A stretch of 64,000 nucleotides of DNA from Sphaerolaimus hirsutus (Eukaryota; Nematoda; Chromadorea; Monhysterida; Sphaerolaimidae), in the NCBI GenBank assembly GCA_964036195.1, contig OZ038450.1, forward strand, positions 11,968,701 through 12,032,700. Direction: 5' to 3'. The notes beneath the pieces are model-generated. The model searched no databases. It had not been told where the DNA came from and worked only from the letters and a program-made list of their open reading frames with translations. Shown one piece after another: positions 1 through 52,300 of the stretch (positions are counted from its first letter, which is position 1; each line of letters begins with the position of its first letter). The position numbers were made by a program, and so were the translations under genes.

Positions 1-1042
1 GGCGAACAGGGTGGTAAGCATAGTGGGGCTCAATCAGGACGGAGATGATCTTTTCTCCGTAATGTGGGTGGATATCTTTTACCCAAAATATCAGAGCCAA
101 AACACAACGGCGTAAAGTGGCTGATGAGCCCAATCCCAGGGACGTAGGCTTGGGACTTTAGGGTCATCAGCAACCTATAACGCACGCCCCACATGGCACG
201 TCTTCATACTGTAAAAAGGCAAGATTATAATCACATGCGAGTTGGACAATGATTAGAAGGACACGGGGATCACAACATGAGTAGGGTGGTGTTAGTGCAC
301 TACCAGCTGCGCGCTTTCAGACAATAAACGGACAGTGGTGAATAATAACCGTGGGTACGGACAATTAACATGCATGGAGAGTCTCACTCAGACGGTCACT
401 CATTAAGTTATCGATGACAACGTCTGTCCTCGATGGGCGAGAGACACGAGCAAGCACGTGTCTCTCGCGCATTGAGGACACCGCAGCACCCAAGCGACCT
501 CACAAAACATGCTCTCACTTTCTGCATCACTACCGTATTCCCAACAACTTAAGTATACCACTCACACAGTCTAAATATGAACGCCACAATCTTTTTAGCT
601 GGGCCTCACGGTCTTTTGAGGAGGTGCAACTTTTTCTTTACTCACCCGTAATAATCTACAAAGTGTCCTATATCACACGACAAGATAACCCACATGAACG
701 AAGTAAAATGTATAAAGGTGCAGTAGCAAGACGTTTCCCGGTGCCTGTGGTCGACACCTAGGACGCGTTACTTCCAACCTGACTATTAAAATTTATAGTG
801 ACATGTCCATACCGGGGTGTTAGCAACATGCTCAATGGTTGGGTTATGATGCCAATGGTATCATACAAATCCAAGAAAAGATATCTAATTTTTTGAGAAA
901 CGTTAAGAGGGATTACATAAAGAAGTTGCATAAAAAGATTACGTATAACAATTCCGTGAAAAATTACATAAAAGAAAAATTACATATAAAAAAATTACTA
1001 CATATAAAAGATTACATACTATACCGGACCTCTGGCATCACA
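1..1042 (-). mobile_element. Putative 3' LTR (partial) of the Ty3/Gypsy element
   Basis: Read on the minus strand, the region just downstream of the polyprotein stop has a purine tract (1043-1055) followed directly by TGTGATGCC. This is the usual arrangement of a polypurine tract abutting an LTR that begins with TG. The LTR would start at 1042 and run toward position 1; its other end is not resolved and may lie outside the window. It contains one copy of the repeated hairpin (121-170). I could not find a convincing matching 5' LTR between 12.5 and 14.9 kb, so the assignment rests only on the polypurine tract and the TG start. Short ORFs in this block look like chance. Confidence 0.45.
121..170. 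repeat. Repeated hairpin copy 1 (putative LTR)
   Basis: Outer stem CTGATGA (121-127) pairs perfectly with TCATCAG (164-170), and CCC 129-131 pairs with GGG 161-163. The inner stem TCCCAGG (134-140) pairs with CTTGGGA (149-155), including one G-T wobble. The loop is GACGTAGG (141-148). This copy is non-coding. Confidence 0.7.
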
Positions 1043-1055
1043 CTCCTCCCCCCTT
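1043..1055 (-). other. Candidate polypurine tract
   Basis: On the minus strand this reads AAGGGGGGAGGAG, 116 bases downstream of the polyprotein stop codon and immediately before a TG dinucleotide. In LTR retrotransposons such a tract primes plus-strand DNA synthesis. The position and composition fit that role. Confidence 0.5.
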
Positions 1056-1171
1056 GCGTGGTCTAACCACAGGTTGTTTGAAAACTAAAACGAAACTTAG
1101 ACAAGAGAGAAACTTAAACTACGGTCTCACATATATTACTTGTTACTTAAAATTATAACTTCCAGGGTGTC

Positions 1172-4100
1172 TTATTTTGAATTAGCGCGCACACGATTAC
1201 CACTTCTGAGTACCATGCCATCATCTGACAGTGGCTTGTCGCCGGGCGTCACACCAGTGTCAGCTTTCTCACCAGAAACATCATGTGTCGGCAGTTCACT
1301 CTCCAAGGGGACCTCACGTACCTTGCGCAGTGCGCGACCGGTCCAAATCGCACCAGAAGCTACCGAATCCTTTACCGGAAGCAGCTTATCCAGATTAACA
1401 CGAATTGCTGCCGCATCGCATTGGTCGATGCGTTTAATTTTGGCTGTCTTCCCTTTTAGCTCTAAAATGCGATAAGGACCGATGTACGGACGGGCAAGTT
1501 TATACGCAGGACCAGTCACAACACCTTCTGCTAAGTACCACACACGCTGCCCTACTTCAAAAGTCAGAGGCTTACATTTCTTATCATACTGCACTTTTTG
1601 TTGTGCTTGTGCCAAATCGATCAACTCTTTGGCAATTTTCCAAGCCTCACGCGTGTACTGGACAATCCGCTCATGGTATTTTGGATGTTCGTTATACACG
1701 AGTTGCGACGTTTCCAAAAACGACGTGTCGCCCGGAAGCGGCATGTCGCGACCTGTTGCCAAAAAGTGCGGAGATTCACCAGTACTCGCATGAGGTATGG
1801 CTCTATACCAGTACAGGGCAGGGGCAAGCCACTCATCCCAGTCAGTGGGGCGCAGAGTGCACATTTTAGCCAGCATGTCTAACAACGTGCGGTTGAAACG
1901 CTCTACTAATGCATTCGCTTGTGGTCGGTACACAGTGGTCTTGCGATGATCTGTCCCCCAAAATTGTGTCAACCCATGTAAAATTGCATTGCAAAATTCC
2001 GAACCGTTGTCAGTTACAAGTACTCGTGGGACACCATGATCTGAAACGAATTGCATAAAATGGTACGCCACTGTTTCCGCGTCTTTTAATCGAAGAGCAT
2101 ACGCACAAGGGTATTTCGTAAATGCATCTTGCAGAACCAATACGTACTGAAAACCGTTTTGCGACATGGGCATTTTTAGAACGTCCATATGGATACGGAA
2201 AAATGGCTCTGCCACCACTGAAATAGGAGTGAGCGGGTTGAGACGTTTACGACCCTGTCCTGTCCTGGTGGCGCACTCCAGACATTTATCCACAGCACGA
2301 TGAGCATCCATGGTCAGTGTGAACCACCAAAAGTAAATTCTTAGCCACATAGACAACTTGAGACCAGCTGGGTGTCCCCAGGAATGAAATCTTTCGCAAA
2401 GTTCCGAAGTGATTTCTATTGGCACCACCAGACACGCACGACGACTAGCATTTCCCATGAACCACAATACATCATGCGCCACACAAAACCCAGTATAGTT
2501 GCGATCTAACCAAGTATTGAAGCGCGCGTGTTTTGTGTATTGCCTAGTGGTCAAAAATAGCTTAATGGACTGAGTATCGGGGTCGTCTTCCTGACCTTTT
2601 ATAATCCGTTGCCAAAATTTTTGGGTTTCCTCAGCGACGGATTCTAGCGTAGAACCCACGATACCGTCTATCGTGAGACCTGCATCGCGAATTACATCAA
2701 CATCCTTACCGGTCATGTTAAATCGTTCAATGGGGGTGGACTTAGCTTCGAAGATTGAGGGGGTGTTCGCTTTTGGTGTTCTATCCTGATTAGCTGGGTG
2801 AGGTATATTATCCAAGGACTGAATATGGCCTACACCGAGCGGGGGGTGCCATTCGTAGTGAATTTCGTCAGAAATTTTCGTAATCTCAACGGCAGAATAT
2901 TCAGACAAATCGGGCTCAGGTTGGTTCAACGGGTGCGCTTGCCACTTATCAGTAAAAGTGGACAGGGGGCAGATACCGGCGGGTACCTCTTCGGGGTCGA
3001 ATTTACCTTGTAAATGATCCTCAGTCCACTTATGGAAATTAACCGACTCGGCAATACGCGACAACGCATCCGCCACACTATTCTCACTACCACGCTTAAA
3101 AATGATCTTAGGTTGGTAAGCCATTAAAAACACATACCACTTGTCTAAACGAGGGTTCTCAGAACGGTTTTCCAGTGCCCATGTAAGCGTACGATGATCC
3201 GTTACAATAATCACTTCTTGCTGTGTTAAATAATGTTTCCAGTATTTCAACGACCAGACAATAGCTAAACATTCCAATTCCGTGGTATTGTAACGTTTCT
3301 CCGCACCTTTTAATGCGCAACTACCATAAGCGACCACGCGATGGCGGCCCGCATCGTCCATTTGACTCAAAACCGCACCCAAGCCACTGCGCGAAGCGTC
3401 CGTGTGCAAAATAAATGGGCGACCCTCTTTAGGGTAGGCTAAAATTGGGCCTTCTACTAAACGCTTCTTAAGTTCTTCGAAGGCCGCCTGACATTCGTCA
3501 TCCCAAGTAGTCTTAGCACCCTGGATCTTTAAATGCAACGGTCGTGTAATAAAGGAAAAGCCCTCAACCCAGCGACGGTAAAAGGAACACATGCCCAGGA
3601 ATCGACGGATTTCCTTAGTGGTTACTGGAACTGGGTAATTTTGGATAGTGGTGATTTTTGACTGTTGCATTTCAATGCCTTCCCTCGTTAGGACGCAACC
3701 CAGAAAGTTAACGCGTTCTTTGAAAAATTCGCATTTCTTAATACCGACTTTGAGGGTGTATCGGTCGAAACGAGCAAAGACATCATCCAAAAGTGAGTAC
3801 ATACGTTCCTCAGTTTCGGCACAAACCAAAACGTCGTCCAGATAAAAATGCACACGGTCTGGGTCTAAGCCCGCAAGTACGTTGGCGATGAGCCGGCTAA
3901 ATGAGGCTGGCGCATTAACTAGGCCAAACGGCATGAATTTATACTGAAACAAACCGACATGGCTAGTAAATGCAGTTTTTGGAATATCCCGAGGGTCAAT
4001 GCGCATCTGCAAGTAGCCAGACGCTAAATCAAGTGATGAAAAATACTGGGGATGTACAAGTCCAGCCATGTCAATCAGGTCAGCACAGTTTGGCAGTGCA

Positions 4101-7100
4101 AAACAATCACGCTTAGTCACTAGGTTCACGCGACGGTAATCGACGCATAATCGCAGCGCGCCATTTTTCTTACGCACCGGGACAATCGGGGATGCCCAAG
4201 GAGACACTGACGGCTCAATTATCCCTAATTTCAGCCACAGCTGCACTTGACGTTCAACTTCCTTACGTAACCCGATAGCTAATCTACGGACTTTCTGTTG
4301 GATCGGGGGGGAGTTTCCAGTTTCGATAGGGTGGTAAATTATATCGCCTGTGTCTCCCATATCAAAATCGGACAGTGAAAAGATGTGGTGGCGTTCTAAT
4401 AGCCAGTCACGCAACACCTGTTGCTTTTCCAAGGGGAGGTGACTAAGTACTCCTTCGTCTAGAATTTTTCCAAGTTGATGCAATCGAGTCTCAGGGGGTG
4501 ACTGGGCGGTAATTACAGGGTCCTCAGGGGGTTCTACATGCGTGGAAGCCAAGTTGGCTTCACAGAGAGCCTTACACAGAGGTGTCTGCACTGTTTGCCA
4601 CCACACATCGGCAAATTCAACTGCGAGTTCGTTCATATGGAAGTCATTAGTCGGTTCCACCACTACCTCTTCGGCCCAGCCAAGAGACTGGCAGGCAAAT
4701 AAGACCATCTCCTTATCCGAATGATTTGCAAAGGGGACAAAGAGCTCATTCCCGTTCTCTAATGGTAGCAAGGTGTTTTCGAAATTTTCGGAGAAGTGTG
4801 CATGTGGGCTGAAAAGAACCGTGGTGAGTATCTCCTGGGGATCACCTGTCAACTCAGCGGGCACATAAGACACAGAGCGCGGTGGGCATACCCAGTTTTC
4901 CGTTGCAACAACCCCGACCGCACCGGTGCCCTTACTTGGCGAAAAATAGGGAACCGGTGACGAAGAGCAAAGCCTATTTACATCTGTTTTCGGGGTCAAA
5001 TACGGCTCTAAAAGTGATCCTACAGTGTAAATATTGCTAGATTGAACTCGTTCAATTGCTTCTGGGATATTTTCACCTGATTTTGCAATGGCGCCTGTAC
5101 GTAACCCGGTGTCTACGTAGGGGATTTCCCCTTCATAGAGCAAACAAGGTTCATCGCCCGGGATGAGATACCGTTTATTGCTGTGCATAACCGGTCGAGT
5201 CATACAAGCGCCAGGACAAATAGGTAGGAACCAAAATTTAGCATAATCACCAATACCTATAATGCACTGAGTGCCTTCAAAGGAAATTGCGAAGTTTATG
5301 CGTCGTGTTTCCGTACCGATCGAGACTGTCAATTGGATCGAGTACAGTAACGTATGTTTATGTCCTGTATAGCCTTTACAAACAAGGGGTTTTTCCAATT
5401 GAAAGATTCGACGGTCTAAACATTTCCCTGAAAGGCTCTCAATTTGCTCTAATAAGGACACGGGAATGGCACTTAATTCCGCGCCAGTATCAGCTAATAC
5501 TAGATAGGGTCCTACACCTTGGATTACGGCGCGGTGGTAAATACTAGGTGTAATTAAATCACGCACAGTGTGCTTTGGACGCGTCATTTTGCCACTTTGC
5601 AAGCGAGCACCCAATGGTTCGGTTACTACCACTTGTGCGGCATTACATTGGTATTCCATGCGCTTAACACCTAAATCCGGGGAGAGTTGTTCCCAATAGT
5701 ATTTCCTACGGTCACGACAAGTTTCTCGGCCAGCATCCGAAGTGCTGAGATCTAGGGCGGCAACTACAGACGTGTGTGTCGCGGGGTTGATAGGGCGAAA
5801 CATATTAATAGATGGTGTCCAGGTAGACGTTTGTGTTTGTACTTGCGCACCTTTTGAACTACTCGGTACTACATGCTCCAGGTCATCAGTGCTCGCGATA
5901 TCACGAATCCCAGGGGCGTAGGCTTGGGACTTTTGCGTGGTTACCGCGAGGGCTGAGGTCTGGTCAGGTTCGCAAGATTGAATGCGAATTTCCGGAATAC
6001 TTAGGTGTGGAATCGAATCGCAAACATGATCGACCTGGGGAACACCAGTCAAGGTTTTACAGAAGCTTACGGTGGGTCTCCTACCAGTCACTGAGTCGCT
6101 GAGCGCGCGTGCCGTCCCAGGGACGTAGGCCTGGCACTTTGGCGCGGCGCCCTTTGGCTCAGTGGTAGACGTGTCCACCCACTGCGTAACGCAAACGTCA
6201 AAATAACTTATTGGAGTTGAGTCAGAATGGTTATAAAGTTCTGGACAGGAACCCAGAAAGTTTACACGCACGTCGTTCTCCTCTTCGGCTAATGCGTCTG
6301 TCTCTGGTGGTACCATATCCGAGTAATCATATTGGTACTGATGCATGGTTTCCGAAGGGTATTCGTTATAATAGCCTTGCAAGTCGTTAGGGTCTGCTAC
6401 CCCATCAACTAAATCATCTTGCAAATCAGTGTGACCAATTTGATCGTCGGGTATGATATCATACTGTGCGTACAGTTCATTGACATTCTGCGCAGGCGTG
6501 TTTTCGGGACACTCACGCGAGAAATGGCCAGGCTTATTGCACTTAAAACACTTAAGTGGCTCACGCGGCGTTTGGGCTGGTGCAGGGCCAGATGAAGTAG
6601 GGCCGGTTGCACGACGACCACACTCTTCAGTGGTATGGCCGGACATTTTACATTTGTCGCAAAAATAGCTCTTATAAGCATTGGGAGGCTGTCGACCGGG
6701 CTTGTCAATAGCTACCACAGGTGGCCCTACATCAACTGTTGGACGCGGAGCAAAGCGCGGGCCTTGTACGGCAGGAGGTAGACGCATAGGCGGAATATCC
6801 CGTTGCGGTCTAAACGGCATGCGCTGTGCATTGAACGGGGGTTGAGCACTAGGCTGCGCTTGTGGCGGAGGGAAAGCAAATCGCGGGTTTTGGCGCATAT
6901 CCATCGGTGGTCGAAACATTGGCCGTTGGCCAGCTAGCATACCGCCACCCAACTGCTGACGGTTATCGCCCATGCGTGCACTAGACATTTGCTGCCGCAG
7001 TTGCGAGAGTTCATCGCGCATGCGCTTAAACTCAGTATCCTTAGCTGAGCGATCTTGCTCAAGCTTACGGTTTTCCAAGGACTGTTGAGCGACTTTGGCA

Positions 7101-10100
7101 TGCTGGATCAGCTTATCGAAAGACTCAAGTGCAGCAGAGTTTAACTCAACTAGTTGACGCAACTCCGAGTTATGCTGACCCAAAGCATGCAAAAATCCCT
7201 CAATCATACGCAATTCGCGCTCGCTATGATTCACATTTTTTAACTGTGCCGATTCGGTCATCAAACGGCGTCGCACAGTATCGATCGTATCATTGGGTTT
7301 CCAGTTCATAAGTGTGATCGCTCGGCATGTGGCTAGCACATGTTTCGCCTGACCAAAATGAGCTTTAAGAGCTGACTCCAATTTCGTAAAAGAGGTCTGG
7401 ACTTCCTGTGGTTGACCATAACACAGGGTCGCTGCATCATGTTCCAACACAGCGGCCAGAGTCAAGGCCATTTCTTCGTCAGAGGCTATTTTGCAAATTT
7501 TACATTTCGCGGTGAACTGTGCTAGCCACTGGCTGACATCAACAGACGTTTTACCCGAGAACATGGGACAACCAAGCATCTTAAGCTTCTTAATACGCTT
7601 AGCCAAATCCTCATCTGAACTGGTTGTGGTGCTAGGCGGGTCATTTGATACATTCGGTTGCGAAACTTGAGGCTGAGCTCGTGATTGAGCACGTCTTTGG
7701 TCTAATAGGGCTCGCATGTTAGCGTTCATAGCCTCCATCTGGTCACGCATATTAGCATATTTTTGGTCCATTTCTGACTTAAGTTGATCTAGAGCCGAAG
7801 TGGGTGCTACAGAAGAGCTGGGGTGTGCTGGTGGAACCGAGAGCCTACCGGTGTGCTGGTGTCCCGTATGATATAATCGCTGGGGCGCCTGCACAGCGGC
7901 GGGTACAGGGGCTCCACCAGCCGAATCAGGCTGCTGATAACCCTGGTGCGACAACAGAAAGTCGTATTGGTTGTCCCGCGTTCCTACATCATCCGGCTGA
8001 ATCATATCTACGTTAGCATCATAGCTGCCACTATTCGTTACCCGGACCATCTGTGAGTGAGCGTTTTGAGCGGTAGGCAACTGTAAGCGACGGCGAGAAT
8101 GCTCGAAGCGATGATTTCGGTCAATTGGAAGCATCGGAGTAGTGTGCACAGGCACCGCCCCGTATCGTCGTGCCAACTTATTGTAGTTAGCCCCAACTTG
8201 TGTGTAATCGCGACGAGCATCACTAGCCAACTTATACAAAAAGCGACCATTAATATGGTACTGTTCGGGTAGCGGATAGGTGTCTGTTATGCCTACCGTT
8301 TCACCATGCTTAATAGAGCGATCAAGCGTGTCAACAAGCTTTTGCACAAGGAAGGCGCAGCGCTGAAATGCAGTGAGTAAGCTATCTGGGAACCAGCCAT
8401 AACGAAACACGAGTTGAAAAATGTATTCAGACTCAAAATACGCGGCGATCAACAACTTAGAATACGCGCGCACGAGATCGGTGTTCCGTGGATCAATGAT
8501 GGCCCAGGGTGTGTCCATAATACCGACTGTAGGCAGAATACGACCGACCCAAGTGGTTTTGACATCCAGCTCAGCCACTGGGCCAACAGAGAACTCCGGC
8601 CCTACAGGTTCTACCCAAGCGTGCATGGATAAGTCAGTCAGTACAATGCGCGGCGGGTCAGTTTGCACTTTAATAGAAGGATCAGGCGGCCACTGATGTG
8701 TCGCCAAGCGCCGCATAGGATCGGGGCTCATTAGATGGGCTACTAAGACATTATTCCAGGCGGGGGGTAAAGTTGAAATGCTACGGTTCAACGGGGTAGT
8801 ATACATTGATGGTTGGTGCGCACTCTGGTGTGGCTCGAGTACTCTCGAAGGTTGTGGTTTGGGTGTCGGAACAGGGGTTTTTCCACGCAACTGGTGTAGC
8901 CAGTCTAATCCAAAACCAATATTGTTCAACAGATTCTGACACACCAACCGACATTTCTGGGGGGTACACCTGTCTGAGACCCGACCGATATGCATTACAC
9001 AGAGGGCATTGTACTGCGCAAAATCCAAATTCTCTAAGCGGCACAAGAGGTCCCGGGCAGAGTCCAGGGTATTACCAAGATGTGCCAGTAATTCTTTCCT
9101 TGTCTTACGAGCAACAGGGCCATTAACTTGGCGCTTAATCTCAGGTAATATATCCGCAAACGCATGGTTGAGGCGAATGCCTTCAGCTATGCACCCATGA
9201 AATTGTGCCATAGCGTACCGAGCTGTTTCTGGCAAGGTGCCAAGCAATGGCATGTACGTGCTAAATCCGGTTCGGTGCACATCGAGGTAAACCCAGGCTT
9301 CTGTCAAACTACGCAGAGCTGCAGCGCGCACTGTTTGGGATACTCCCTTATTTTCTAGGCCAAAAACACCAGCCGTTGATTTCGACTGAATCTGAGAACG
9401 AAGGGTAGTCCAATCCCTTGCTGACTGTGCGGAAACGAGCAAAACGGATTGCACAAACGCAAGTGCACACTGAACGGGGTAGGCGCGTGACTGTGGGCGC
9501 GCGGGGCCAGGGTCTGACGCTGCCAGTACTTGCTGGTTCGCTTGTCTCTGAGCCAGCGTGGACACATCCACGGGGGGCTTAGTTAGGGCATTCGCATCAG
9601 CACAAAAGTTACTCAGTAGGGACTGTAAATCACCCGCTAGGGAGTCAACCCGGGGTTTCAAGTGAACACTTAGAGTACGGTCAATAGAGTCTTGCAGGGA
9701 TCCACGGAATGGCAACATTGCCTGTGACCACGTTCGGAGGGTCATCAGGGCCGAGGTAACATTATCCAGAGTGGTTTGCTGGGATGGGTCAGAAGGTGTC
9801 ACAGTGGCAAGGTCAAACAATAGCTGGTCTAACTTATTTATCTCGGGATCAAGTTCGCTTAGAAGTTTTTCAAAGGGTTGTAACACATCCCCAATGCACT
9901 GATCTGAGGGTTTCAGGTGATCCCATAATTTAGTAGGTTCACATGCTTGTTGCAAGGGGGAAATCATAGTATCAATCTCTGATTGGTTATTCGTCAGTAA
10001 TTCTCGATGTTGTCTTACCGGCCCAGTGAAGGGTTGGGGTTGAGGGCTATTAACGGGGTTAGAAGGTGGTGGTTTCACGGGGGTGCTTAGGTCACAGACA

Positions 10101-12457
10101 GAGGTGGGGGGTCTGCTAGGAGATTGAATGCTCAAGCAGGGGGAACTAGTAGCGTGAGGGAATTCTTCGTCGGGTCGTCTTAACACTGTATCCCGGGACT
10201 CGTTGACATATGACATCCCTGGCTCAGCGGTATATGCTGGGGTGGCCAGGTCAGACATCCGGCCCCGAGAACCCACAGAATCGCCAACATCACTACACGT
10301 AACACCGTGGCGGCTAGTACTGGCCCATTGACCGACAGGGCGCGCGCGTTCCCTACCGTCTAGCTCAAAGAAGCTTTGCTGGTTAGAATTGCCGCGGCGG
10401 CGAGTAACCACACCCAGGGATGAATTATACTGCAACATATTAATATCCGCGGCGTGAGCCATGTAATTATCATTGGCATCTGGCGTCGTGTGTGCTCCAC
10501 TCAGTGCAGCAGGGTCAGCCATATAATCGTCAATAATTTCGAAAGAATTGAGCGAGTCCTCAATAAACACTGTTTGAAACGATTGGGCTGCAGACAAGGT
10601 AGTGGAGCACACATGTTCCAAAGCCACATCCGTGTCACAAGTAGAGTCGTCTAGAGTACTAGGCTGGCTAGCTGCCAAGTCAACACTGTGCTCAAATTGG
10701 CCGTGACCCGCAATCCCAGAGACGTCGGTCTGGCATTTTAGTGAGTCGCTGTCAATTGAAGCATGCGATGACAAGCTCCATTCAGTTGAAAACTCAAAGT
10801 CGTCCGAAGACTCTGATACACCATCATCAGCTGGCAAATACGAATACTGGCCAGCTGCCAAATTCACATCATGCTCGAATTGACACTGGTCCACAATCCC
10901 AGAGACGTAGGTCTGGCATTTTAGTGAATCACTATCAATTGAAGCACATGGTGGCGAGCTTAGTACGGTTGATTGTTCAAAATCATCAAAGGACCATGGT
11001 GCACCATCGTCAACTGACAAGTATAAATACTGGTAATCAAATGAGTCGTAAGAGTAGTCAGTGGTCACGTATTTTTCGCATGATTGACATAGCTCTGGCT
11101 CGCCATCAACAGTTTCGAAAGTTTTGAATTGACAATTGACTGATGCGGGGCATGAAAATTTTTTCGGAAATTTCAAAATTCGTATCAAAAATCGTCGCCA
11201 GGGCATGGTGTATCGTAATCCCTCAAATTTAGAAATTTGGCTCTGTTGCAACATGGATGGGGCAGTATGCCAAGAGATCAACCGGTAATAAGCGCGTGGT
11301 ACACATTTCAAACGTTCAAAACGCTTACGCAAAAGCCAACATTTGTGGTTCCAGTATGTGCACGGTAGCATAGGGCTAAGCTGAAACACTACGCCCTGTA
11401 CGCATGGAGGGTGGCTATGTGTGCGGTGTGAAGGGGGGGTGAAAGGGGGGTGCAACACGGTGCCGTGACCCGAGGTGGGACCTCCAATATAATATAACGG
11501 ACCCCCGGGTACTACAACCTTATCTCTAATATAATGATATAACCCCTCCGGTCTTGCAACCTTGTCTCCAATATAATACTGTGGACCCCCAGGTGCTACA
11601 ACCTTATCATTGTGGGCCAAATAGCAACACCTTGGACAGTGTCCAAGTCTGTCAGAACTTTCAACGATGCGCTCATGCAGCCCATCCTGCCTAATTACGC
11701 CAAATGTACAGCACCTAACAGGGGACTTGGTTACCTTTTGCACGTGTGGAACGACAAACGATGGCAACATGCCAACATAATGATCGCACAATTCCGACAA
11801 TTCAACGAGCGACATGATGTCCACCGGACGCTTAACAATTACCCTACAAGCCCTACGCTTGCCGCGTGCGCGGGAACCCTGTCTGCCAAACTTCACCAGC
11901 TTGGTGCCTTTCGACCTGGCTACTCCGAAGGACGTAGGCTTCTGAGCTTTTCGGTCTACTTGGTTGCCACAGCTAACAAAGTCCGGTCGCGCAAATTGCA
12001 AAAGCTTGCGGCGGATAACGTGCGGCTGTAATTTCCCTCTCTTACCCACCAAATACCAAAGGTTTCTAGGCTGCACAGATTTCTTCAGCCTTTCAGCAGT
12101 TCCCTCAAAAACACCACAAATTCCGGGCTCAATAAAAGCTGGCTCCATGACCAAGTGATCAAGCAACCACTGCTGGGAAGCATCACAAATTATCTCGCCA
12201 TTGGGCAAAACAGAATCAATCACAAAATCATCGGCGCCCTGAACCTTTTCCGCATACGTGGCCCGTCGCTGTATTTGGAACATTTCCGACACGGGTTCAA
12301 AACCATCAAAAACAGGGCCCGGTTCCAAATCATCAACCTCCCAGAAACCTTCAGAACTTGGCGCGCTTCCAGAAACAGAAACAAGATTCGCCCACGCTTC
12401 GAAAACCGATAATTGAACATCACTCGAATGCAAGCAAATAAAAGCAACTTCCATCAT
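1172..12457 (-). CDS. Ty3/Gypsy Gag-Pol polyprotein, single 3761-aa ORF
   Basis: One uninterrupted ORF encodes a complete retrotransposon polyprotein. Seen in order: a long N-terminal region of about 1600 residues that I do not recognise; a Gag-like helical region (about 1680-1850); two CCHC zinc knuckles starting at C1933 and C1970; an aspartic protease DTG at D2323; reverse transcriptase with YLDD at 2872-2875; RNase H with HTDAS at D3020; and an integrase with an HHCC-type zinc motif (about 3345-3395) and a D3425, D3483, E3519 triad with the expected 35-residue last spacing. Reverse transcriptase preceding integrase is the Ty3/Gypsy order. No envelope-like segment is visible after the integrase. 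At 3761 residues it is far longer than usual Gag-Pol (about 1200-1800), mainly because of the N-terminal extension. The lack of stops over 11.3 kb suggests recent activity. The start at 12457 is the first ATG of the frame, and the true start could be internal. Confidence 0.93.
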   Translation of the reverse strand: MMEVAFICLHSSDVQLSVFEAWANLVSVSGSAPSSEGFWEVDDLEPGPVFDGFEPVSEMFQIQRRATYAEKVQGADDFVIDSVLPNGEIICDASQQWLLDHLVMEPAFIEPGICGVFEGTAERLKKSVQPRNLWYLVGKRGKLQPHVIRRKLLQFARPDFVSCGNQVDRKAQKPTSFGVARSKGTKLVKFGRQGSRARGKRRACRVIVKRPVDIMSLVELSELCDHYVGMLPSFVVPHVQKVTKSPVRCCTFGVIRQDGLHERIVESSDRLGHCPRCCYLAHNDKVVAPGGPQYYIGDKVARPEGLYHYIRDKVVVPGGPLYYIGGPTSGHGTVLHPPFTPPSHRTHSHPPCVQGVVFQLSPMLPCTYWNHKCWLLRKRFERLKCVPRAYYRLISWHTAPSMLQQSQISKFEGLRYTMPWRRFLIRILKFPKKFSCPASVNCQFKTFETVDGEPELCQSCEKYVTTDYSYDSFDYQYLYLSVDDGAPWSFDDFEQSTVLSSPPCASIDSDSLKCQTYVSGIVDQCQFEHDVNLAAGQYSYLPADDGVSESSDDFEFSTEWSLSSHASIDSDSLKCQTDVSGIAGHGQFEHSVDLAASQPSTLDDSTCDTDVALEHVCSTTLSAAQSFQTVFIEDSLNSFEIIDDYMADPAALSGAHTTPDANDNYMAHAADINMLQYNSSLGVVTRRRGNSNQQSFFELDGRERARPVGQWASTSRHGVTCSDVGDSVGSRGRMSDLATPAYTAEPGMSYVNESRDTVLRRPDEEFPHATSSPCLSIQSPSRPPTSVCDLSTPVKPPPSNPVNSPQPQPFTGPVRQHRELLTNNQSEIDTMISPLQQACEPTKLWDHLKPSDQCIGDVLQPFEKLLSELDPEINKLDQLLFDLATVTPSDPSQQTTLDNVTSALMTLRTWSQAMLPFRGSLQDSIDRTLSVHLKPRVDSLAGDLQSLLSNFCADANALTKPPVDVSTLAQRQANQQVLAASDPGPARPQSRAYPVQCALAFVQSVLLVSAQSARDWTTLRSQIQSKSTAGVFGLENKGVSQTVRAAALRSLTEAWVYLDVHRTGFSTYMPLLGTLPETARYAMAQFHGCIAEGIRLNHAFADILPEIKRQVNGPVARKTRKELLAHLGNTLDSARDLLCRLENLDFAQYNALCVMHIGRVSDRCTPQKCRLVCQNLLNNIGFGLDWLHQLRGKTPVPTPKPQPSRVLEPHQSAHQPSMYTTPLNRSISTLPPAWNNVLVAHLMSPDPMRRLATHQWPPDPSIKVQTDPPRIVLTDLSMHAWVEPVGPEFSVGPVAELDVKTTWVGRILPTVGIMDTPWAIIDPRNTDLVRAYSKLLIAAYFESEYIFQLVFRYGWFPDSLLTAFQRCAFLVQKLVDTLDRSIKHGETVGITDTYPLPEQYHINGRFLYKLASDARRDYTQVGANYNKLARRYGAVPVHTTPMLPIDRNHRFEHSRRRLQLPTAQNAHSQMVRVTNSGSYDANVDMIQPDDVGTRDNQYDFLLSHQGYQQPDSAGGAPVPAAVQAPQRLYHTGHQHTGRLSVPPAHPSSSVAPTSALDQLKSEMDQKYANMRDQMEAMNANMRALLDQRRAQSRAQPQVSQPNVSNDPPSTTTSSDEDLAKRIKKLKMLGCPMFSGKTSVDVSQWLAQFTAKCKICKIASDEEMALTLAAVLEHDAATLCYGQPQEVQTSFTKLESALKAHFGQAKHVLATCRAITLMNWKPNDTIDTVRRRLMTESAQLKNVNHSERELRMIEGFLHALGQHNSELRQLVELNSAALESFDKLIQHAKVAQQSLENRKLEQDRSAKDTEFKRMRDELSQLRQQMSSARMGDNRQQLGGGMLAGQRPMFRPPMDMRQNPRFAFPPPQAQPSAQPPFNAQRMPFRPQRDIPPMRLPPAVQGPRFAPRPTVDVGPPVVAIDKPGRQPPNAYKSYFCDKCKMSGHTTEECGRRATGPTSSGPAPAQTPREPLKCFKCNKPGHFSRECPENTPAQNVNELYAQYDIIPDDQIGHTDLQDDLVDGVADPNDLQGYYNEYPSETMHQYQYDYSDMVPPETDALAEEENDVRVNFLGSCPELYNHSDSTPISYFDVCVTQWVDTSTTEPKGAAPKCQAYVPGTARALSDSVTGRRPTVSFCKTLTGVPQVDHVCDSIPHLSIPEIRIQSCEPDQTSALAVTTQKSQAYAPGIRDIASTDDLEHVVPSSSKGAQVQTQTSTWTPSINMFRPINPATHTSVVAALDLSTSDAGRETCRDRRKYYWEQLSPDLGVKRMEYQCNAAQVVVTEPLGARLQSGKMTRPKHTVRDLITPSIYHRAVIQGVGPYLVLADTGAELSAIPVSLLEQIESLSGKCLDRRIFQLEKPLVCKGYTGHKHTLLYSIQLTVSIGTETRRINFAISFEGTQCIIGIGDYAKFWFLPICPGACMTRPVMHSNKRYLIPGDEPCLLYEGEIPYVDTGLRTGAIAKSGENIPEAIERVQSSNIYTVGSLLEPYLTPKTDVNRLCSSSPVPYFSPSKGTGAVGVVATENWVCPPRSVSYVPAELTGDPQEILTTVLFSPHAHFSENFENTLLPLENGNELFVPFANHSDKEMVLFACQSLGWAEEVVVEPTNDFHMNELAVEFADVWWQTVQTPLCKALCEANLASTHVEPPEDPVITAQSPPETRLHQLGKILDEGVLSHLPLEKQQVLRDWLLERHHIFSLSDFDMGDTGDIIYHPIETGNSPPIQQKVRRLAIGLRKEVERQVQLWLKLGIIEPSVSPWASPIVPVRKKNGALRLCVDYRRVNLVTKRDCFALPNCADLIDMAGLVHPQYFSSLDLASGYLQMRIDPRDIPKTAFTSHVGLFQYKFMPFGLVNAPASFSRLIANVLAGLDPDRVHFYLDDVLVCAETEERMYSLLDDVFARFDRYTLKVGIKKCEFFKERVNFLGCVLTREGIEMQQSKITTIQNYPVPVTTKEIRRFLGMCSFYRRWVEGFSFITRPLHLKIQGAKTTWDDECQAAFEELKKRLVEGPILAYPKEGRPFILHTDASRSGLGAVLSQMDDAGRHRVVAYGSCALKGAEKRYNTTELECLAIVWSLKYWKHYLTQQEVIIVTDHRTLTWALENRSENPRLDKWYVFLMAYQPKIIFKRGSENSVADALSRIAESVNFHKWTEDHLQGKFDPEEVPAGICPLSTFTDKWQAHPLNQPEPDLSEYSAVEITKISDEIHYEWHPPLGVGHIQSLDNIPHPANQDRTPKANTPSIFEAKSTPIERFNMTGKDVDVIRDAGLTIDGIVGSTLESVAEETQKFWQRIIKGQEDDPDTQSIKLFLTTRQYTKHARFNTWLDRNYTGFCVAHDVLWFMGNASRRACLVVPIEITSELCERFHSWGHPAGLKLSMWLRIYFWWFTLTMDAHRAVDKCLECATRTGQGRKRLNPLTPISVVAEPFFRIHMDVLKMPMSQNGFQYVLVLQDAFTKYPCAYALRLKDAETVAYHFMQFVSDHGVPRVLVTDNGSEFCNAILHGLTQFWGTDHRKTTVYRPQANALVERFNRTLLDMLAKMCTLRPTDWDEWLAPALYWYRAIPHASTGESPHFLATGRDMPLPGDTSFLETSQLVYNEHPKYHERIVQYTREAWKIAKELIDLAQAQQKVQYDKKCKPLTFEVGQRVWYLAEGVVTGPAYKLARPYIGPYRILELKGKTAKIKRIDQCDAAAIRVNLDKLLPVKDSVASGAIWTGRALRKVREVPLESELPTHDVSGEKADTGVTPGDKPLSDDGMVLRSGNRVRANSK
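5892..5950. repeat. Repeated hairpin copy 2 (inside ORF)
   Basis: Nested stems are CTCGCG (5892-5897) with CGCGAG (5945-5950), CACG (5902-5905) with CGTG (5936-5939), and TCCCAGG (5908-5914) with CTTGGGA (5923-5929). The loop is GGCGTAGG (5915-5922). Complementarity continues outward, with CCAG near 5878 and CTGG near 5961. Confidence 0.7.
6071..6179. repeat. Repeated hairpin copy 3, longest (inside ORF)
   Basis: Paired segments from outside inward are GGTGG 6071-6075 with CCACC 6175-6179, CTACCA 6081-6086 with TGGTAG 6163-6168, CTGAGC 6099-6104 with GCTCAG 6157-6162, GCC 6111-6113 with GGC 6141-6143, and CCAGG 6117-6121 with CCTGG 6130-6134. The loop is GACGTAGG (6122-6129). This is an imperfect hairpin of about 109 bases inside protein-coding sequence. 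Confidence 0.7.
10695..10757. repeat. Repeated hairpin copy 4 (inside ORF)
   Basis: CCAGA (10716-10720) pairs with TCTGG (10729-10733) around the loop GACGTCGG (10721-10728). GAC 10705-10707 pairs with GTC 10745-10747, and AATTG 10695-10699 pairs with CAATT 10753-10757. It lies in the first unit of a 183-nt tandem repeat of the ORF. Confidence 0.6.
10878..10940. repeat. Repeated hairpin copy 5 (inside ORF)
   Basis: CCAGA (10899-10903) pairs with TCTGG (10912-10916) around the loop GACGTAGG (10904-10911). CAC 10892-10894 pairs with GTG 10924-10926, and AATTGA 10878-10883 pairs with TCAATT 10935-10940. It is the counterpart of copy 4 in the second tandem unit. Confidence 0.6.
11481..11610 (-). 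repeat. Three 16-residue tandem repeats in the polyprotein N-terminus
   Basis: On the minus strand three consecutive units of about 48 nt encode variants of DKV-x-x-PGG-P-x-YYIG. The first and third are nearly alike; the middle one has diverged (RPEGLYHYIR). This is a small in-frame minisatellite about 285-325 residues from the N-terminus; its function is unknown. Confidence 0.75.
11913..11956. repeat. Repeated hairpin copy 6 (inside ORF, different reading frame)
   Basis: CTC-c-GAAG (11923-11930) pairs with CTTC-t-GAG (11939-11946), with one central mismatch. The loop is GACGTAGG (11931-11938). GACC 11913-11916 pairs with GGTC 11953-11956. The stem sequence is unlike copies 1-5 but pairs equally well. 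The loop is translated in another frame here (KPTSFG rather than QxYVxG). Confidence 0.65.
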
Positions 12458-13975
12458 GATTTCACAAATTAGAATTAGAAGTAATTAGATCCACTAGCTG
12501 GAATGAGCCAATAGATTAAGTAGAGAATTAGTTGCACCAGAGTAAGCTTGAATTACACTAATTAAGTTTCTTGAATAACGTTGCAATTAAAGTTTCCAAA
12601 GTATTTAAATATTTCCAATTTACCTTTCCACTTTCCAAATCAAAACATTAACATAAAAATGACTAAATAACACTCAGGGTCATATAAGTTAAACCAGACA
12701 GGTGAGGATAGCAGTACGATGCACTGGTAAGAGACCACACAAGTCCAGGTACTTAAGTCCTAGCTTGGCACAGCACCACTATCAAAAGTAATCTACAACG
12801 ACGTAGCACAACTGTTTGGGCCCTTACGAAAGCCTAGAGCGAGTCAATAGGTGTACAGCCTACTTCAGCTTATACTACGCCTAAAACAAGTCCACAGAGG
12901 TCCAGACGTACAGTAAGCATCACAGATGGTGGGTTCTCCCCATACAACACCCTATCTTAGCTATACCGGCAGCTCCGTGTGGCCACTCCTGCCCCTGTGA
13001 ACCTAAATGTCACCGTGCAGAGGGAAGAGAAGGCCTATGCCAGAGTTAGCAGAGAATGAATAACCAAGGGTAGGCTCATTTCAGCTGGTAAATCACTGAC
13101 TTAGTAATTAGAAATTGGGTTGAATAGACTGATGATAATCACTGGATTGGGGCTCTCTTTTATGGGTTTGAAGTGCCCAAAACTGGTTTGCAGCTGGGCG
13201 GAGCCAACCAATCACGGAAGTGCATTCAAAAGTGTACCGAAAATAAGTGACTTCAGCTGAACCAAGCCATGTACCACCAGGGTTACTTTTTAATGGAACA
13301 AGGGGATGGTGACTTGACATTCAGGAACACCTTTCTTCTGGCACTCAGCCAGCTAATGAAACCAAACTTGGAACTGTGCCAAACTAAGAAATAACCACCT
13401 ACAGTAACCTACCAAATGTAAACGCACAAACTAACAGCTTAAAAATACCTAAACTGAGTGAAACTCTCAAAACTGAACGTGATACAATCAACAACATGCC
13501 GAGTGAATCCACAGCTAGTCGAACTGCAAGCAAATACAAAAAGGGGCCAAAAATACAAAAATAACCGTGTTTGCTCAAACATGAGCTCGTCCAAAACCAG
13601 CGTACCAACCGGCCAACGTGAAACTAAATACAAGTGCAAAAGTGCAAAACACAGAAATACGTGCAAAACACAGAAATAAGTGCGAAACGTAAAACATAAT
13701 CACGAACACATGCAATTATCACAACTAAGGGGGTTAAGTGGGTAATTAAGTGCAAATAAATACAAATACATACTCAATAAATCACAAACCGCGGCACCTA
13801 CCGCGCACCTACTCCCTAAACCTACTCCTACACCCTACAAAATCACAAAACTCCTCCCTGTGGCAGCAGTGGCTACGGGATATGTGCCAAACTACACACA
13901 AAAACTGCCTTTTTGGCATTATTCCAATTTCCTTTACTAATTTTTAACCTAAGGCACATATCCCTCCAGAAGGGT
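12458..13975. other. Non-coding leader between the Gypsy ORF start and the GC-rich block
   Basis: This is AT-rich sequence upstream (on the minus strand) of the polyprotein start. I see no convincing ORF, splice structure or tRNA. It is probably the 5' untranslated leader of the retrotransposon, but no primer-binding site or 5' LTR could be assigned with confidence. Confidence 0.4.
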
Positions 13976-13977
13976 TG

Positions 13978-14022
13978 ACCCGTCTCTACTCCGAAGGACG
14001 TAGGCTTCTGGAGCTATCGGGG
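13978..14022. repeat. Repeated hairpin copy 7 (non-coding)
   Basis: CTCCGAAG (13989-13996) pairs with CTTC-t-GGAG (14005-14013, one bulged T). The loop is GACGTAGG (13997-14004). CCCG (13979-13982) pairs with CGGG (14018-14021). The stem type is shared with copy 6, but the pairing is restored to C-G where copy 6 has a C-T mismatch. Confidence 0.65.
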
Positions 14023-14581
14023 CCCTCCCTTCCGGTGGCCACTCCCACCAAGAACTCTGAGCGGCCGAAGTCTGTCGCTCCGCGGACGTTCCCGGCGGCC
14101 AACGCTGTCGACGCTCACGAGGACTGGGTAGGGGTGAATTTACAAGTTTTTGAACAATGAACTGTCGCCAAAATACGGCGGCAGCGCTTAAACCCCCTCA
14201 AAAATACACTTGGTGCCATTTTCCGAAAGTTGGCACTCGGCCAAAACTGACCGATTCAACACTTTACAAAAATCCCCAAAACACCCAAAATCCCCCTCTC
14301 CCGGGTTCCGGCGGTCGGCGGTCGTCCAATGGCGGCGGCGCGGCGCTGTCGCGGCCGTCGAAGTCGTTCGCCGGCGCCCATTCGGTCGCCATCCTCAAGG
14401 GAATCGACTTTCGACCGGCGCTGCTTTTTCTTTTTAATGAAAGCGCCGTAATTTTCGCAAAAGTTAGGTTCTATTCCCGGAGGTGTCGAATGACGTCACC
14501 CGGGCTTTTCACGACTAGAAGCGGCCAATTAAGCCGTTCCGCTAATTAAGACCGGCGACAAGGCGCCATCGACATATCGTT

Positions 14582-14658
14582 CTATGGTAATTCGCGCTTA
14601 ATCACCGTCCCAGAGGCGTAGGTCTGGCACTTTGGTGATTTGGCGCCAATTACCATAG
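14582..14658. repeat. Repeated hairpin copy 8, best-formed (non-coding)
   Basis: The outer stem CTATGGTAATT (14582-14592) pairs perfectly with AATTACCATAG (14648-14658). GCG 14594-14596 pairs with CGC 14644-14646, ATCACC 14601-14606 with GGTGAT 14634-14639, and CCAGA 14610-14614 with TCTGG 14623-14627. The loop is GGCGTAGG (14615-14622). A C-C mismatch (14609, 14628) between a GT/AC pair and the apical stem recurs in copies 3 and 9. Confidence 0.8.
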
Positions 14659-14800
14659 CTGGCGTCCGTTGCGCCGTAAGTTCCCTATAAGTTAGGTTTC
14701 ATATAGGGCGACGTCGTGATGACGTCGCTCGGTCTAAAGATGGCCCGTGTGGCGTTTCCGGCGGCTAAAGCGCCATAATTAGGGCTTGTAAGCGTTAATT

Positions 14801-14855
14801 GACGCTGGGTCGCCGTCCCAGAGACATAGGTCTGGCACTTTGGTGGCCCGCCGTC
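14801..14855. repeat. Repeated hairpin copy 9 (non-coding)
   Basis: GACG 14801-14804 pairs with CGTC 14852-14855. GGGTCGCC 14807-14814 pairs with GGTGGCCC 14842-14849 using two wobble pairs. CCAGA 14818-14822 pairs with TCTGG 14831-14835. The loop is GACATAGG (14823-14830), the most divergent loop of the nine. Confidence 0.7.
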
Positions 14856-15478
14856 AGTTCTCGCATTACACATGTAACTGTTGTGATGTAATCCAAATAG
14901 TTTCTTTATTCAGGTGGGATATGTAACCACAGTAAAGTGTGTTATCAGTGAAGTGTATGCCATTTTCTAAGCAATGATACATTTCTTTTGTGCATCCAAT
15001 ATATATTAATGTCCATTTGAGGGACGCACTTCATGTCCATTTGAGAGACACACTTCATGTATATTTGCTGTGGAGGCAGCGTCCACTTTTTGTTTGGCTT
15101 TAGCCATTTTTTTACTGATTGCATTATGCATCGTATACTGCTGGGTTTTCTGTTTGAGAATAGCTAAATTCGCCAGATTCGCTATCACGGCGGTTCGATT
15201 TCGTTTGAGGGGATCTGGCTTTAGATCTGCTGTTTTGATTCGCTAGAACCGGGCCCCGTTTGCGATCATCCATTTCGTTTACCTAGTCACGCTTATTATT
15301 TACACGCTTCGGAAACTGCACTCCTAACATTTAGTTATGTTTGTCGCATTGCCAGTGCTCTACGAATATGTCGCGCTGTTTATTACTCCTTGTTTGCGAA
15401 ATTTGTGTTGATCAGTGAAAGGATATCTGTTTCACTGTGTCTTGTCACATACTACTTTCAAGTGGACTTTTTTCGCAG

Positions 15479-49349: not shown

Positions 49350-52300
49350 ATGGCAACGTGCAGCGTCGACGACCGGCTAGCTGCGCTGGAGCGGCGGCGC
49401 GAGGATGTGCGCCTGGAGTTCAAGTGCCACCCGGTCGTGTGCATAGAGGAACTGTCCGATCGGCAGGAAAGGCTCAACGATGTCGGCAAGATCAAACGCA
49501 GGCTGCAGCCTTGGTCCAAGTTTGTTACGTGCAGCCACGTGTTTTTACATTGTTGAATCGGCTAGGGATGGCCAGCGCTTTTTTTTAAAAAGCGCATGGG
49601 TCCCAGTGCTTTTTTATAAAAAAGAGCGCTGGCAAAAATTTTTTGTACCTATGCACTAGGTATTTTGTAATTTTTTGGGCGCAAGCGCGCAATTTCACAT
49701 ACACATTACCACTGGTGGTTGTTTTCATTGGTTTTGTGTAGTTAGTGTCATTGCTTCTATTCCTGCATGCTATCATATAATAATAAGCTGTGATATGTGA
49801 GTGTTGTGTATAATATGCAGTAAATGCGTTTCCACATACTTATACAGTGGGAAACATCAGTTTCAATGTATTCACCTTCTTTTGTAACCTTATTTAAGCA
49901 TTATTTCATGCCTAAGATCACTTGAAATCACGACCATATAGCAATTTACATCACGAGTCAACATAAAAGGTGGATTTTTGGCATAAAACCCCACTTATAA
50001 TGCTATCCCATTGCTCCACAGCCATTCTGTGGCTATTGATCATCACAAGTACTGCCACCTGTATGATATACATGTATATATTGACTCAGAACCATATTTG
50101 GGAGCTTTCTAGGAAATGTCTTGACATTTTTTTGAAAAAAGCAAAAAAAGCGCGTTTTTTTTTAAAAACTGGGCTTTTTGAAAAAAGCGGGGCCGTTGAA
50201 AAAAAGCGCTTTTTATCCATCCCTAGCCGCGGCGGTGTAGTAATAGGGGATTTTGGGGTTAGCATTTGGGGGGGAGGGGGTTCGCCTAGGGTTGGCCAAT
50301 GTTTTTTTAAAAACGTTTTTTATTAAAAAAACGTTTTTTTATTTAAAAAACATGACGTCCGAAATGTTTGTTTTTAAAAAAAACATTGACCGAAATTTTT
50401 AGTACTAAGCACTAGGTATTTTGCAAAATTTTTGCGCGCAAGCGCGCAATTTCACACACAAATTGACATTGATGGTTGTTTTCATTGGTTTTGTGGCATT
50501 TTTAGTATCAAAGTATCCATTTATATATGCTACCATGGGTTAATAAGCCGTCATTTGCCGGTGTAGTATATAATATTGAGGTAATGTGCTTCCATGTACC
50601 TCCACAGTGTGTAACGTCACTCCCAAAGTAACAACCTCCTTTTATAACCTTGTTTCATCACTATTCCGTGCCAAACTTTACCTGAAGTCACGAACATTTG
50701 ACTATAAGACCCCGTTTACACGGATTTTTTGTGATGACTCGACAAAAATAAAACGTTCAATAAGTTGAGTAAAAATGTTCCATATTTATGAGAAAAAGTG
50801 GTCAATTATACATCTAACCTAGGCAAATATGCATGTCAAATTGCACAATCGTGCTTGTAGCTCATGAGTTAAAGGCGTTTGAAAACTTTTGCAGTTGTCG
50901 GACAGTTGTCAGACTGTCTCCGACAGCCAGCGACAATAGCAAACTTTTTTCAAACGTTATAAATCTTGGGCTACAAGCATGAGTTTGCAATTTGGCCTGC
51001 ATATTCGCTTAGGTAGAAGGTATACTTGACCACTTTTTCTCATAAATATGGAACATTTTTACTCAACTTATCGAACGTTTTATTTTTGTCGAGTCGTCAC
51101 AAAAAATCCGTGTAAACGGGGTCTTAGGCGATATACGAACGTATCAACAAAAAAATGGATATTTTTGACAGAAATCACCACTTATAATGATATCCCATGG
51201 CTCAACAGCCATTATATGGTCATATATAACATCACAGAGTATTGCCACTGTCTGATATACCTATATATGTTGACACAAGATCATATCTGGGAGCTTTTAA
51301 AAAAAACGTTTTTTATTTAAAAAAAACGTTTTTTTAATAAAAAAACATCGAGTTAAAAAAAACGTTTTTTTCCAACCCTAGTTTCGCCACTTTTCACGTG
51401 TTTATATATCGGGAACCGCTAGGTGAAAAATGTTGAAATTTGGATATATTATGGTTTCAGGTCGGGGCTCTCTCGGATTTCGACGAAATTTATCTACGAG
51501 GCCCCAGACCGGAGATAGGGTGGGTTATAAAAACGTGGTCATTTGCGAAATTTTTGAGTGTCGCTCAGAAAATTCAAACTTTGCACATCAAAAACTCGGC
51601 TAATTCTGGGCCGATTTTGATCGTTGAACGCTTAAACTGATCGGCACAACCTGTAGATTCCGTTTTTGTTGTCGGATTAGTGATGTCTATATTCCTTACA
51701 TAGATTTGACTCGGTTTGTAAACCCAAAAAATTATTTATCTAAACATGCTATCATATACTTTATACAACGAGAATTCGTATAAAACAAAAATAAGTTCAA
51801 TATCTCGTTCCAATCAAAAGTTACAGCGCTTCAAACTTTTTCCACCCATCCACAAAAATAACCACATGCAGTACTATGCATGCAATTTCAAAACTCCATA
51901 TCTCGATCATTTCTCAGCCGATTTTCACCAATGAACACTTAAAATTATCAGAATAACATGGAGATATTGTTTTTATTCACAGTTTATTTGTATACGTTGT
52001 CATTATGTCAATTTCAGTCAAAAGATCGCGTTATTTTCTTGTATGGCAAATCTGATAAAATATAGGGAAAGTCTGGGATAAAAAATGAAATCTTCACGTC
52101 ATTCTGATAATTTTAAGTGTTCATTGGTAAAAATCGGCTGAGAAATGGTCGAGATATGGAGTTTTGAACTTGCATGCATGTGGTTATTTTTGTGGATGGG
52201 AGGAAAATGTTTGAAGCGCTGTAACTTTTGATTGGAAAGAGATATTGAACTTATTTTTGTTTTATACGAATTAACGTGGTATAAAGTATATGATAGCATG

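Follow-up and report, generated by a model that had tools for sequence, protein, structure and literature searches.

The stretch considered here, termed the window below, comprises 64,000 nucleotides of contig OZ038450.1 from the nematode Sphaerolaimus hirsutus (assembly GCA_964036195.1, forward-strand positions 11,968,701 to 12,032,700). It holds part of a Ty3/Gypsy long terminal repeat (LTR) retrotransposon along which hairpins with a shared core recur; these are probably one cis-acting element repeated about twenty times along a 29-kb genome. The carrier lies on the minus strand, measures 29.4 kb (G000:C1:11954166-11983570), and continues for 14.5 kb beyond the left edge of the window. Its length, strand, and youth follow from a 3,383-bp direct repeat, 99.88% identical between window 11488-14870 and L043:1166-4548, with CATG—the target duplication—at both outer sides. 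The element is thus young and recently active. The first open reading frame (ORF1) runs from a long N-terminal Gag-like region through a CCHC knuckle, reverse transcriptase (RT), and RNase H to integrase; the second (ORF2; 2,277 codons, L041:2064-8897, minus strand) is situated to the left of the window, and a polypurine tract precedes the 3′ LTR. An earlier reading of the letters of the window (the sequence-only reading) had named a Gypsy carrier, and the order of RVT_1, RNase H, and rve, together with the LTRs, the CATG duplication, and the polypurine tract, bears this out. The features within the window are as follows.

1..14870, minus strand: part of the element lying within the window, delimited by the LTR pair and flanking sequence
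11488..14870, minus strand: 5′ LTR, 3,383 bp, a direct repeat with CATG outer flanks (its 3′ partner, L043:1166-4548, lies left of the window)
1172..12484, minus strand: ORF1, 3,770 codons open from one stop to the next (Pfam zf-CCHC, RVT_1, RT_RNaseH, and rve matched on pieces)
1043..1055, minus strand: second polypurine tract, after ORF1, possibly a central one (from reading the sequence)
117..175, plus strand: hairpin, loop 141-148, between ORF1 and ORF2 (covariance model R1, 57.8 bits, matched 117-174; also from its fold)
5891..5949, plus strand: hairpin, loop 5915-5922 (GGCGTAGG), in ORF1, downstream of the zinc knuckle (R1, 50.1 bits)
6098..6156, plus strand: hairpin, loop 6122-6129, in ORF1 (R1, 59.0 bits)
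10697..10755, plus strand: hairpin, loop 10721-10728 (GACGTCGG), in ORF1, joined with 10904 in a 183-bp tandem duplication (R1, 63.6 bits)
10880..10938, plus strand: hairpin, loop 10904-10911, in ORF1 (R1, 66.1 bits)
11907..11965, plus strand: type-B hairpin (GAAG/CTTC), loop 11931-11938, in the 5′ LTR and ORF1 (R1, 41.6 bits; outer stem weak)
13973..14031, plus strand: type-B hairpin, loop 13997-14004, in the 5′ LTR (R1, 43.3 bits)
14591..14649, plus strand: hairpin, loop 14615-14622 (GGCGTAGG), near the outer end of the 5′ LTR (R1, 66.9 bits)
14799..14857, plus strand: hairpin, loop 14823-14830 (GACATAGG), at the outer end of the 5′ LTR (R1, 63.9 bits)

The nine hairpins, named hereafter by the first position of their loops, had been noticed in the sequence-only reading; all nine loops are confirmed on the plus strand with GACGTAGG or a variant differing from it by one change. 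The octamer alone is ordinary, with 29 window matches at up to one mismatch against 23.6 expected (a number reached in 15 of 100 shuffles), and the evidence therefore rests on loop, stem, and flank combined. These were captured in covariance model R1 (59 columns, 24 pairs), trained on the nine window hairpins and nine more, which together make up 18 of the 19 distinct positions in the element; only L043:5262 was left out. All nine are recovered at E 1e-10 or better, with no further window match up to E = 1. Over 83 kb (the window and its flanks), the model finds 23 hairpins and no other match up to E = 1, and L043:5262, absent from training, scores 65.5 bits. A plain descriptor (loop with at most one change, four of five stem pairs) adds 27849 and 28552, both lacking a model match.

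Each hairpin consists of a near-constant 8-nt loop, with variants mostly at loop positions 2, 4, and 6, a conserved stem of eight levels, a 3-nt bulge, and longer position-specific arms. On the plus strand, the core reads arm–RTCCCARR–GRCRTMGG–YYTGG(C/G)AY–TTT–arm, from which type-B stems deviate. The top stem is CCARR/YYTGG in type A and GAAG/CTTC in type B (11931 and 13997), with eight levels from loop to bulge in both. Plus-strand folds leave the 8-nt loop open in nine of nine window hairpins, and folds of the opposite (sense) strand in seven of nine, the exceptions being 141 and 5915. Three diverged LTRs (L085, L086, and L087) carry an extra weak type-B hairpin (21.7–29.9 bits) beside 13997, apparently a duplication.

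The 23 hairpins of the element occupy its 19 positions as follows: four in each LTR (11931 also falling in ORF1), four others in ORF1, one (141) between the ORFs, and ten downstream of ORF2 (L041 601 to 2001, and L043 5262), with none inside ORF2. The common orientation reported for the nine copies holds at 19 of 19 positions. The extent first given, 121-14855, was too short, the element being longer and ten more hairpin positions lying left of the window. Hairpins 5915, 6122, 10721, and 10904 are placed in ORF1 and 11931, 13997, 14615, and 14823 in the 5′ LTR; 141 falls between the ORFs, not in a leader. The same inter-ORF region contains a long hairpin with a different loop at window 421-482 (self-inverted match 425-480, 86%).

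Such a distribution leaves next to no room for a protein motif encoded several times. Four ORF1 copies (5915, 6122, 10721, and 10904) do share one frame and spell KCQ(A/T)YV(P/S)G-like peptides, but 11931 is read in another frame and 14 of the 19 positions fall outside the two ORFs; hence, the conserved thing is not a peptide. KCQ(A/T)YV(P/S)G-like peptides, with up to two changes allowed, are absent from the 65 polyproteins listed in a protein search, and an encoded peptide is contradicted by the noncoding copies.

The sequence-only reading had further claimed that stems differ between copies yet always pair, and that outer arms, unrelated between copies, are self-complementary within each. 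Pairing beyond chance is borne out by both slide and swap controls. Across 18 hairpins, 68.5% of cells pair, compared with 28–42.5% for partners displaced by one to three columns, and in 13 of 19 hairpins the score of the hairpin's own arms falls within the top 5% of 342 swapped-arm pairs. Arms were clustered from 183 hits reduced to 115 unique 75-mers (hits too near a locus end were left out and identical ones merged), and they form 17 clusters at 70% identity. When every cluster contributes a single sequence, 144 of 272 outer levels are Watson–Crick, against 81.3 (standard deviation [sd] 8.2, maximum 123) in 5,000 swaps. All six double changes that start from a Watson–Crick pair also end in one; this count, like that of polymorphisms below, omits clusters with one member and any sequence that departs from its cluster majority by more than 14 changes. 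That arms are unrelated between copies yet pair within each holds generally, but not for 10721 and 10904, whose arms are related through the 183-bp tandem duplication. The outer stem of 11931 is weak, with 190 of 342 swapped-arm controls scoring equally well. A chance origin of the hairpins is rejected by the model scan and the arm-swap controls.

All parts of the hairpin change more slowly than the spacer and the ORF2 part, and the top stem is best kept. Elsewhere in the genome, 11 loci with arrays of 8 to 13 hairpins (three of them counting an LTR hairpin, and some truncated at an end) keep the order of the cluster downstream of ORF2 and differ in number by duplication of hairpin-bearing segments. 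Five hairpins (k1478-k2001) were compared in ten of these arrays (L081, cut at one end, was left out) over columns with at least eight letters. Variable sites amount to 114/294 in spacer, 37/219 in arm, 3/80 in core stem, 6/40 in loop, and 2/15 in bulge, and the spacer, arm, and core-stem contrast yields Fisher p values of 6e-8 and 3e-11. Relative to three diverged LTR copies (LTR part, window 12601-14870), changes number 343/3027 in spacer, 11/396 in arm, 1/144 in core stem, 5/72 in loop, and 0/27 in bulge; relative to three diverged arrays, the corresponding counts are 408/2553, 62/1171, 8/432, 8/216, and 5/81, while the adjoining ORF2 part differs at 23–24%. Diverged copies overall thus show 0.7–1.9% in core stems, 2.8–5.3% in arms, and 11–16% in spacers, with each reference position counted once and the longest BLAST piece taken first. 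The copies are related by descent, and sites in these comparisons are not fully independent. The pieces whose ORF2 part is 23–24% different are L084, L088, and L089; an RT 99% identical to that of the family lies about 13–15 kb from L089, possibly a sign that subfamilies have recombined.

Arm pairing and slow change lend support to the suggestion of a structured cis-element reused many times by one transposon. They also bear on the possibility, raised alongside that suggestion, that each copy is a separate insertion of a palindromic miniature inverted-repeat transposable element (MITE), or that neutral palindromes have spread by duplication. Duplication does spread some hairpins (10721/10904, k1033/k1284, and k749-k1033-k1478), but the 17 arm clusters, the single orientation, and change slower than that of spacers make this explanation scarcely credible. 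Separate MITE insertion in particular is not borne out: copies share no terminal sequence, as their 17 arm clusters attest, although no copy-by-copy search for target duplications was made, and the copy-number differences in the 11 arrays are segment duplications.

The sequence-only reading had proposed a search for copies outside Gypsy elements, and a pattern search of the 348-Mb genome was run. The strict hairpin pattern gives 650 matches against 0 in a reversed control, and a looser pattern 1,208 against 2. Seventeen hairpins per copy in 61 copies would amount to 1,037, and looser-pattern matches beyond this number could come from larger arrays and partial copies. Among the matches listed, strict-pattern places all lie on contig C1 and form ten groups, eight of which contain the family RT, with the hairpins on the opposite strand to it in eight of eight. 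Seven of seven isolated matches inspected (L088, L090, and five lone looser-pattern places) are pieces of the carrier family, and, among the matches listed, the hairpins are limited to this family. The model finds no match in two pieces of other Gypsy families from the same genome, which at 8 kb and 7 kb make a weak control; a crude shared-loop search of those pieces reveals none repeated, and it is insensitive, recovering only two to three loop-word repeats in the carrier itself. Elsewhere, the pattern occurs once in a viral contig collection and 19 times in a genome contig collection (these collections may omit the genome of the window), the TTT bulge is in place in 0 of these 20 matches, and by rough estimate their number is within chance. 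At about 511–563 kb of G000:C1, hairpins repeat with a 25,765-base period over two units, in the manner of LTR-sharing tandem elements.

Because the top stem, loop, and bulge are kept while the arms differ by site, the hairpins look like protein sites set on a rod. They may be multivalent protein-binding sites on the genomic RNA, most likely for Gag-mediated packaging or condensation—the explanation favoured here, though tentatively and with confidence slightly short of even. Each hairpin would be a putative binding site for one protein, read via its top stem, bulge, and loop, and the arms would be the rod presenting that site. Many sites per molecule would permit multivalent, cooperative binding and recognition of the full-length genome. 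The most likely reader would be the element's own Gag (through its CCHC knuckle or long N-terminal region), and the likeliest purpose would be to package or condense the genomic RNA selectively; the scatter of sites across both coding and noncoding sequence speaks for packaging. Sense RNA is a plausible acting molecule, although mispairs show no strand bias. In a broader form, which is advanced with some reserve, a repeated hairpin code, maintained by selection across coding, noncoding, and LTR sequence and multiplied through duplication, would package or move the genome of this giant element, perhaps working as single-stranded DNA in addition to RNA. Dimerisation through the loop, another role proposed for the hairpins, is unlikely because variants GGCGTAGG and GACATAGG lose the ACGT palindrome.

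Several observations weigh against packaging through sites on RNA, and the main weakness is the absence of a strand bias among mispairs. A selected RNA helix should show an excess of G-U over A-C on one strand, but plus-strand stems hold 29 A-C and 21 G-T (p 0.32), polymorphisms 27 A-C and 25 G-T (p 0.89), and the fixed outer-stem register 23 A-C and 24 G-T. In predicted RNA folds, the loop is open in 21 of 35 sense representatives, against 34 of 35 antisense ones, although sense folds are the more stable by 3.0 (standard error 1.1) kcal/mol (fold comparisons used 35 of the 115 sequences, at least six changes apart within a cluster). Individually, 6 of 19 hairpins miss the 5% arm-swap level. 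The swap test within clusters, covering 114 of the 115 sequences in 16 clusters (one singleton was used across clusters only), is modest, at 1,776 against 1,765.2 (sd 3.2; p 0.0016), and among those 16 clusters that of 10721/10904 alone is significant singly. The loop is no more constrained than the arms (6/40 vs 37/219; 5/72 vs 11/396; 8/216 vs 62/1171), which moves the likely recognition point to the top stem and bulge and leaves the standing of the favoured explanation unchanged. Finally, the ten positions after ORF2 also fit a 3′-untranslated regulatory role.

The mispair counts bring in a further explanation: the acting form could be single-stranded or cruciform DNA, in the complementary DNA or the integrated copy, bound by a protein of the element or the host. 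Equal numbers of G-T and A-C mispairs suit a DNA helix better than an RNA helix, and folding with DNA parameters leaves the loop open in 32 of 35 sense representatives and in 26 of 35 on the other strand. Against this, mispair numbers are low, and many of the cells counted may be neutral or lie out of register; furthermore, the loop is non-palindromic, and ordinary double-stranded recognition would not need the arms. We know of no LTR element that requires such DNA hairpin sites, which likewise counts against DNA as the acting form, and this explanation is considered improbable.

The ten positions after ORF2 (of 19), lying in a likely 3′ untranslated region, make control by a host protein the closest rival to packaging. 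Here, the hairpins would be RNA sites for a host protein that steers the unspliced transcript through nuclear export, localisation, stability, or translation, a role like that of retroviral transport elements, and a 29-kb two-ORF transcript would indeed have to be exported and translated. However, five positions in ORF1 and one between the ORFs are unneeded for 3′ control, and no Rfam family is matched at cut-off; host-protein control of export or stability is accordingly rated as doubtful, although less so than action as DNA. A role as small-RNA precursors, or as decoys for a Dicer- or Drosha-like enzyme, is most improbable. Stems of about 25 levels with scattered mismatches do resemble microRNA precursors, and one hairpin has a weak mir-350 match (22.8 bits, E 0.13, gathering score 60), but the top stem is conserved across positions while the arms differ, and microRNA logic is the reverse of this pattern.

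Beyond its hairpins, the carrier belongs to one compact family that sequence comparison sets apart from the other Gypsy elements of the genome, since RT identities are split: of 111 candidates scored from 1,974, 61 are 96–100% identical (three partial) and 50 are 36–40% identical. Among the 65 polyproteins listed, the best identity is at most 43%. For an ordinary Gypsy RT, the best of at least 120 matches listed reaches 49% identity over 69% of the RT. No protease domain is matched by Pfam in the carrier element, and the Gag-like parts of ORF1 contain no credible Pfam domain. The layout is unusual in that ORF1 begins within the 5′ LTR (window 11488-12484) and crosses the primer-site region. 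The sequence past the 5′ LTR opens with TTGGAGGTCCCACC, whose TGG start is primer-site-like and marks a candidate transfer RNA primer site. The tract at window 1043-1055, followed by TGTGATGCC...GGTATAGTATGTAAT, is similar to the tract and junction that precede the 3′ LTR and is a possible central polypurine tract. To the right of the element, 250 bp (window 14870-15119) are a 98.8% inverted copy of L043:499-748 on its left. Outside the element, large palindromes occur at window 51383-52656 and 56490-56757, the latter giving sub-threshold Rfam microRNA matches.

For ORF2, none of the 7,982 candidates scored is a homologue at E 1e-3, and the frame ends in a NADAR domain (Pfam, 49.3 bits; cut-off, 35.1). 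According to passages of one paper, NADAR enzymes reverse guanine ADP-ribosylation (PMC11125620), and the ORF2 domain may thus serve to counter host defence. In passages of a paper on NADAR-type systems in viruses, the words retrotransposon and retroelement do not appear (PMC9503650).

Except in a few models, Ty1 and Ty3 among them, little is known of how LTR retrotransposons choose the RNA that they package. If the hairpins do act in this way, some twenty repeats of one recognition site, with natural variants and arms independent of each other, would let the code be read by comparing sites, and recognition could be tested in vitro with short RNAs. The array would then constitute a multivalent genome-labelling system—one for which no description in Gypsy elements was found in the open-access literature, among the matches listed and with most subscription papers outside coverage—and might bear on the mobility of a 29-kb genome.

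Several known systems invite comparison. Rfam 15 yields no gathering-score match for any of the nine hairpins in the window, nor for nine of the ten downstream positions (all but L043:5262). The retroviral transport and packaging elements CTE, RRE, and Psi are protein-binding hairpins on unspliced RNA, confined to one compact region; the sites of the carrier are instead spread over 29 kb, and no such Rfam family is matched. Retrozymes and Terminons, as excerpts on them describe, are likewise retroelements with structured RNA motifs, namely hammerhead ribozymes, but no hammerhead or other Rfam ribozyme is found on the carrier hairpins scanned. Closest in build are the Burro elements, giant planarian Gypsy elements of about 30 kb with a giant ORF1 and accessory coding, as portrayed in the sections consulted (PMC6431247). 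The carrier resembles them in size (29.4 kb), Gypsy class, giant ORF1, and accessory coding, and section 7 of that paper leaves dispersed hairpins unmentioned. Of accessory domains of the Burro kind, BIR, MATH, ankyrin, and BCL2-like domains have no Pfam match on the ORF1 and ORF2 pieces scanned, NADAR being matched instead, and none of the 65 proteins listed is named as planarian (many being unnamed).

The nearest functional parallel is offered by the dispersed packaging signals of MS2, parechovirus, and hepatitis B virus, which, in the portions of the literature drawn on, comprise many stem-loops that share a motif and otherwise differ. In hepatitis B virus, passages of one report describe core assembly in vitro as regulated by multiple dispersed stem-loops with a shared loop motif (PMC7612645). 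The carrier has a comparable stem-loop array, with 23 hairpins at 19 positions in 29.4 kb. It differs in that a larger motif is shared (top stem, loop, and bulge), the array sits in a Gypsy element, and its binding protein is a putative one. As for a conserved recognition motif in the loop, the loop here is near-constant across positions, yet between copies varies no less than the arms, and the top stem is best kept. The hairpin may be a novel motif within a familiar kind of device, likened to the packaging-signal class by its pattern and not as a tested member. If this likeness is true, the idea of dispersed signals would reach beyond RNA viruses and hepatitis B virus and take in retrotransposons.

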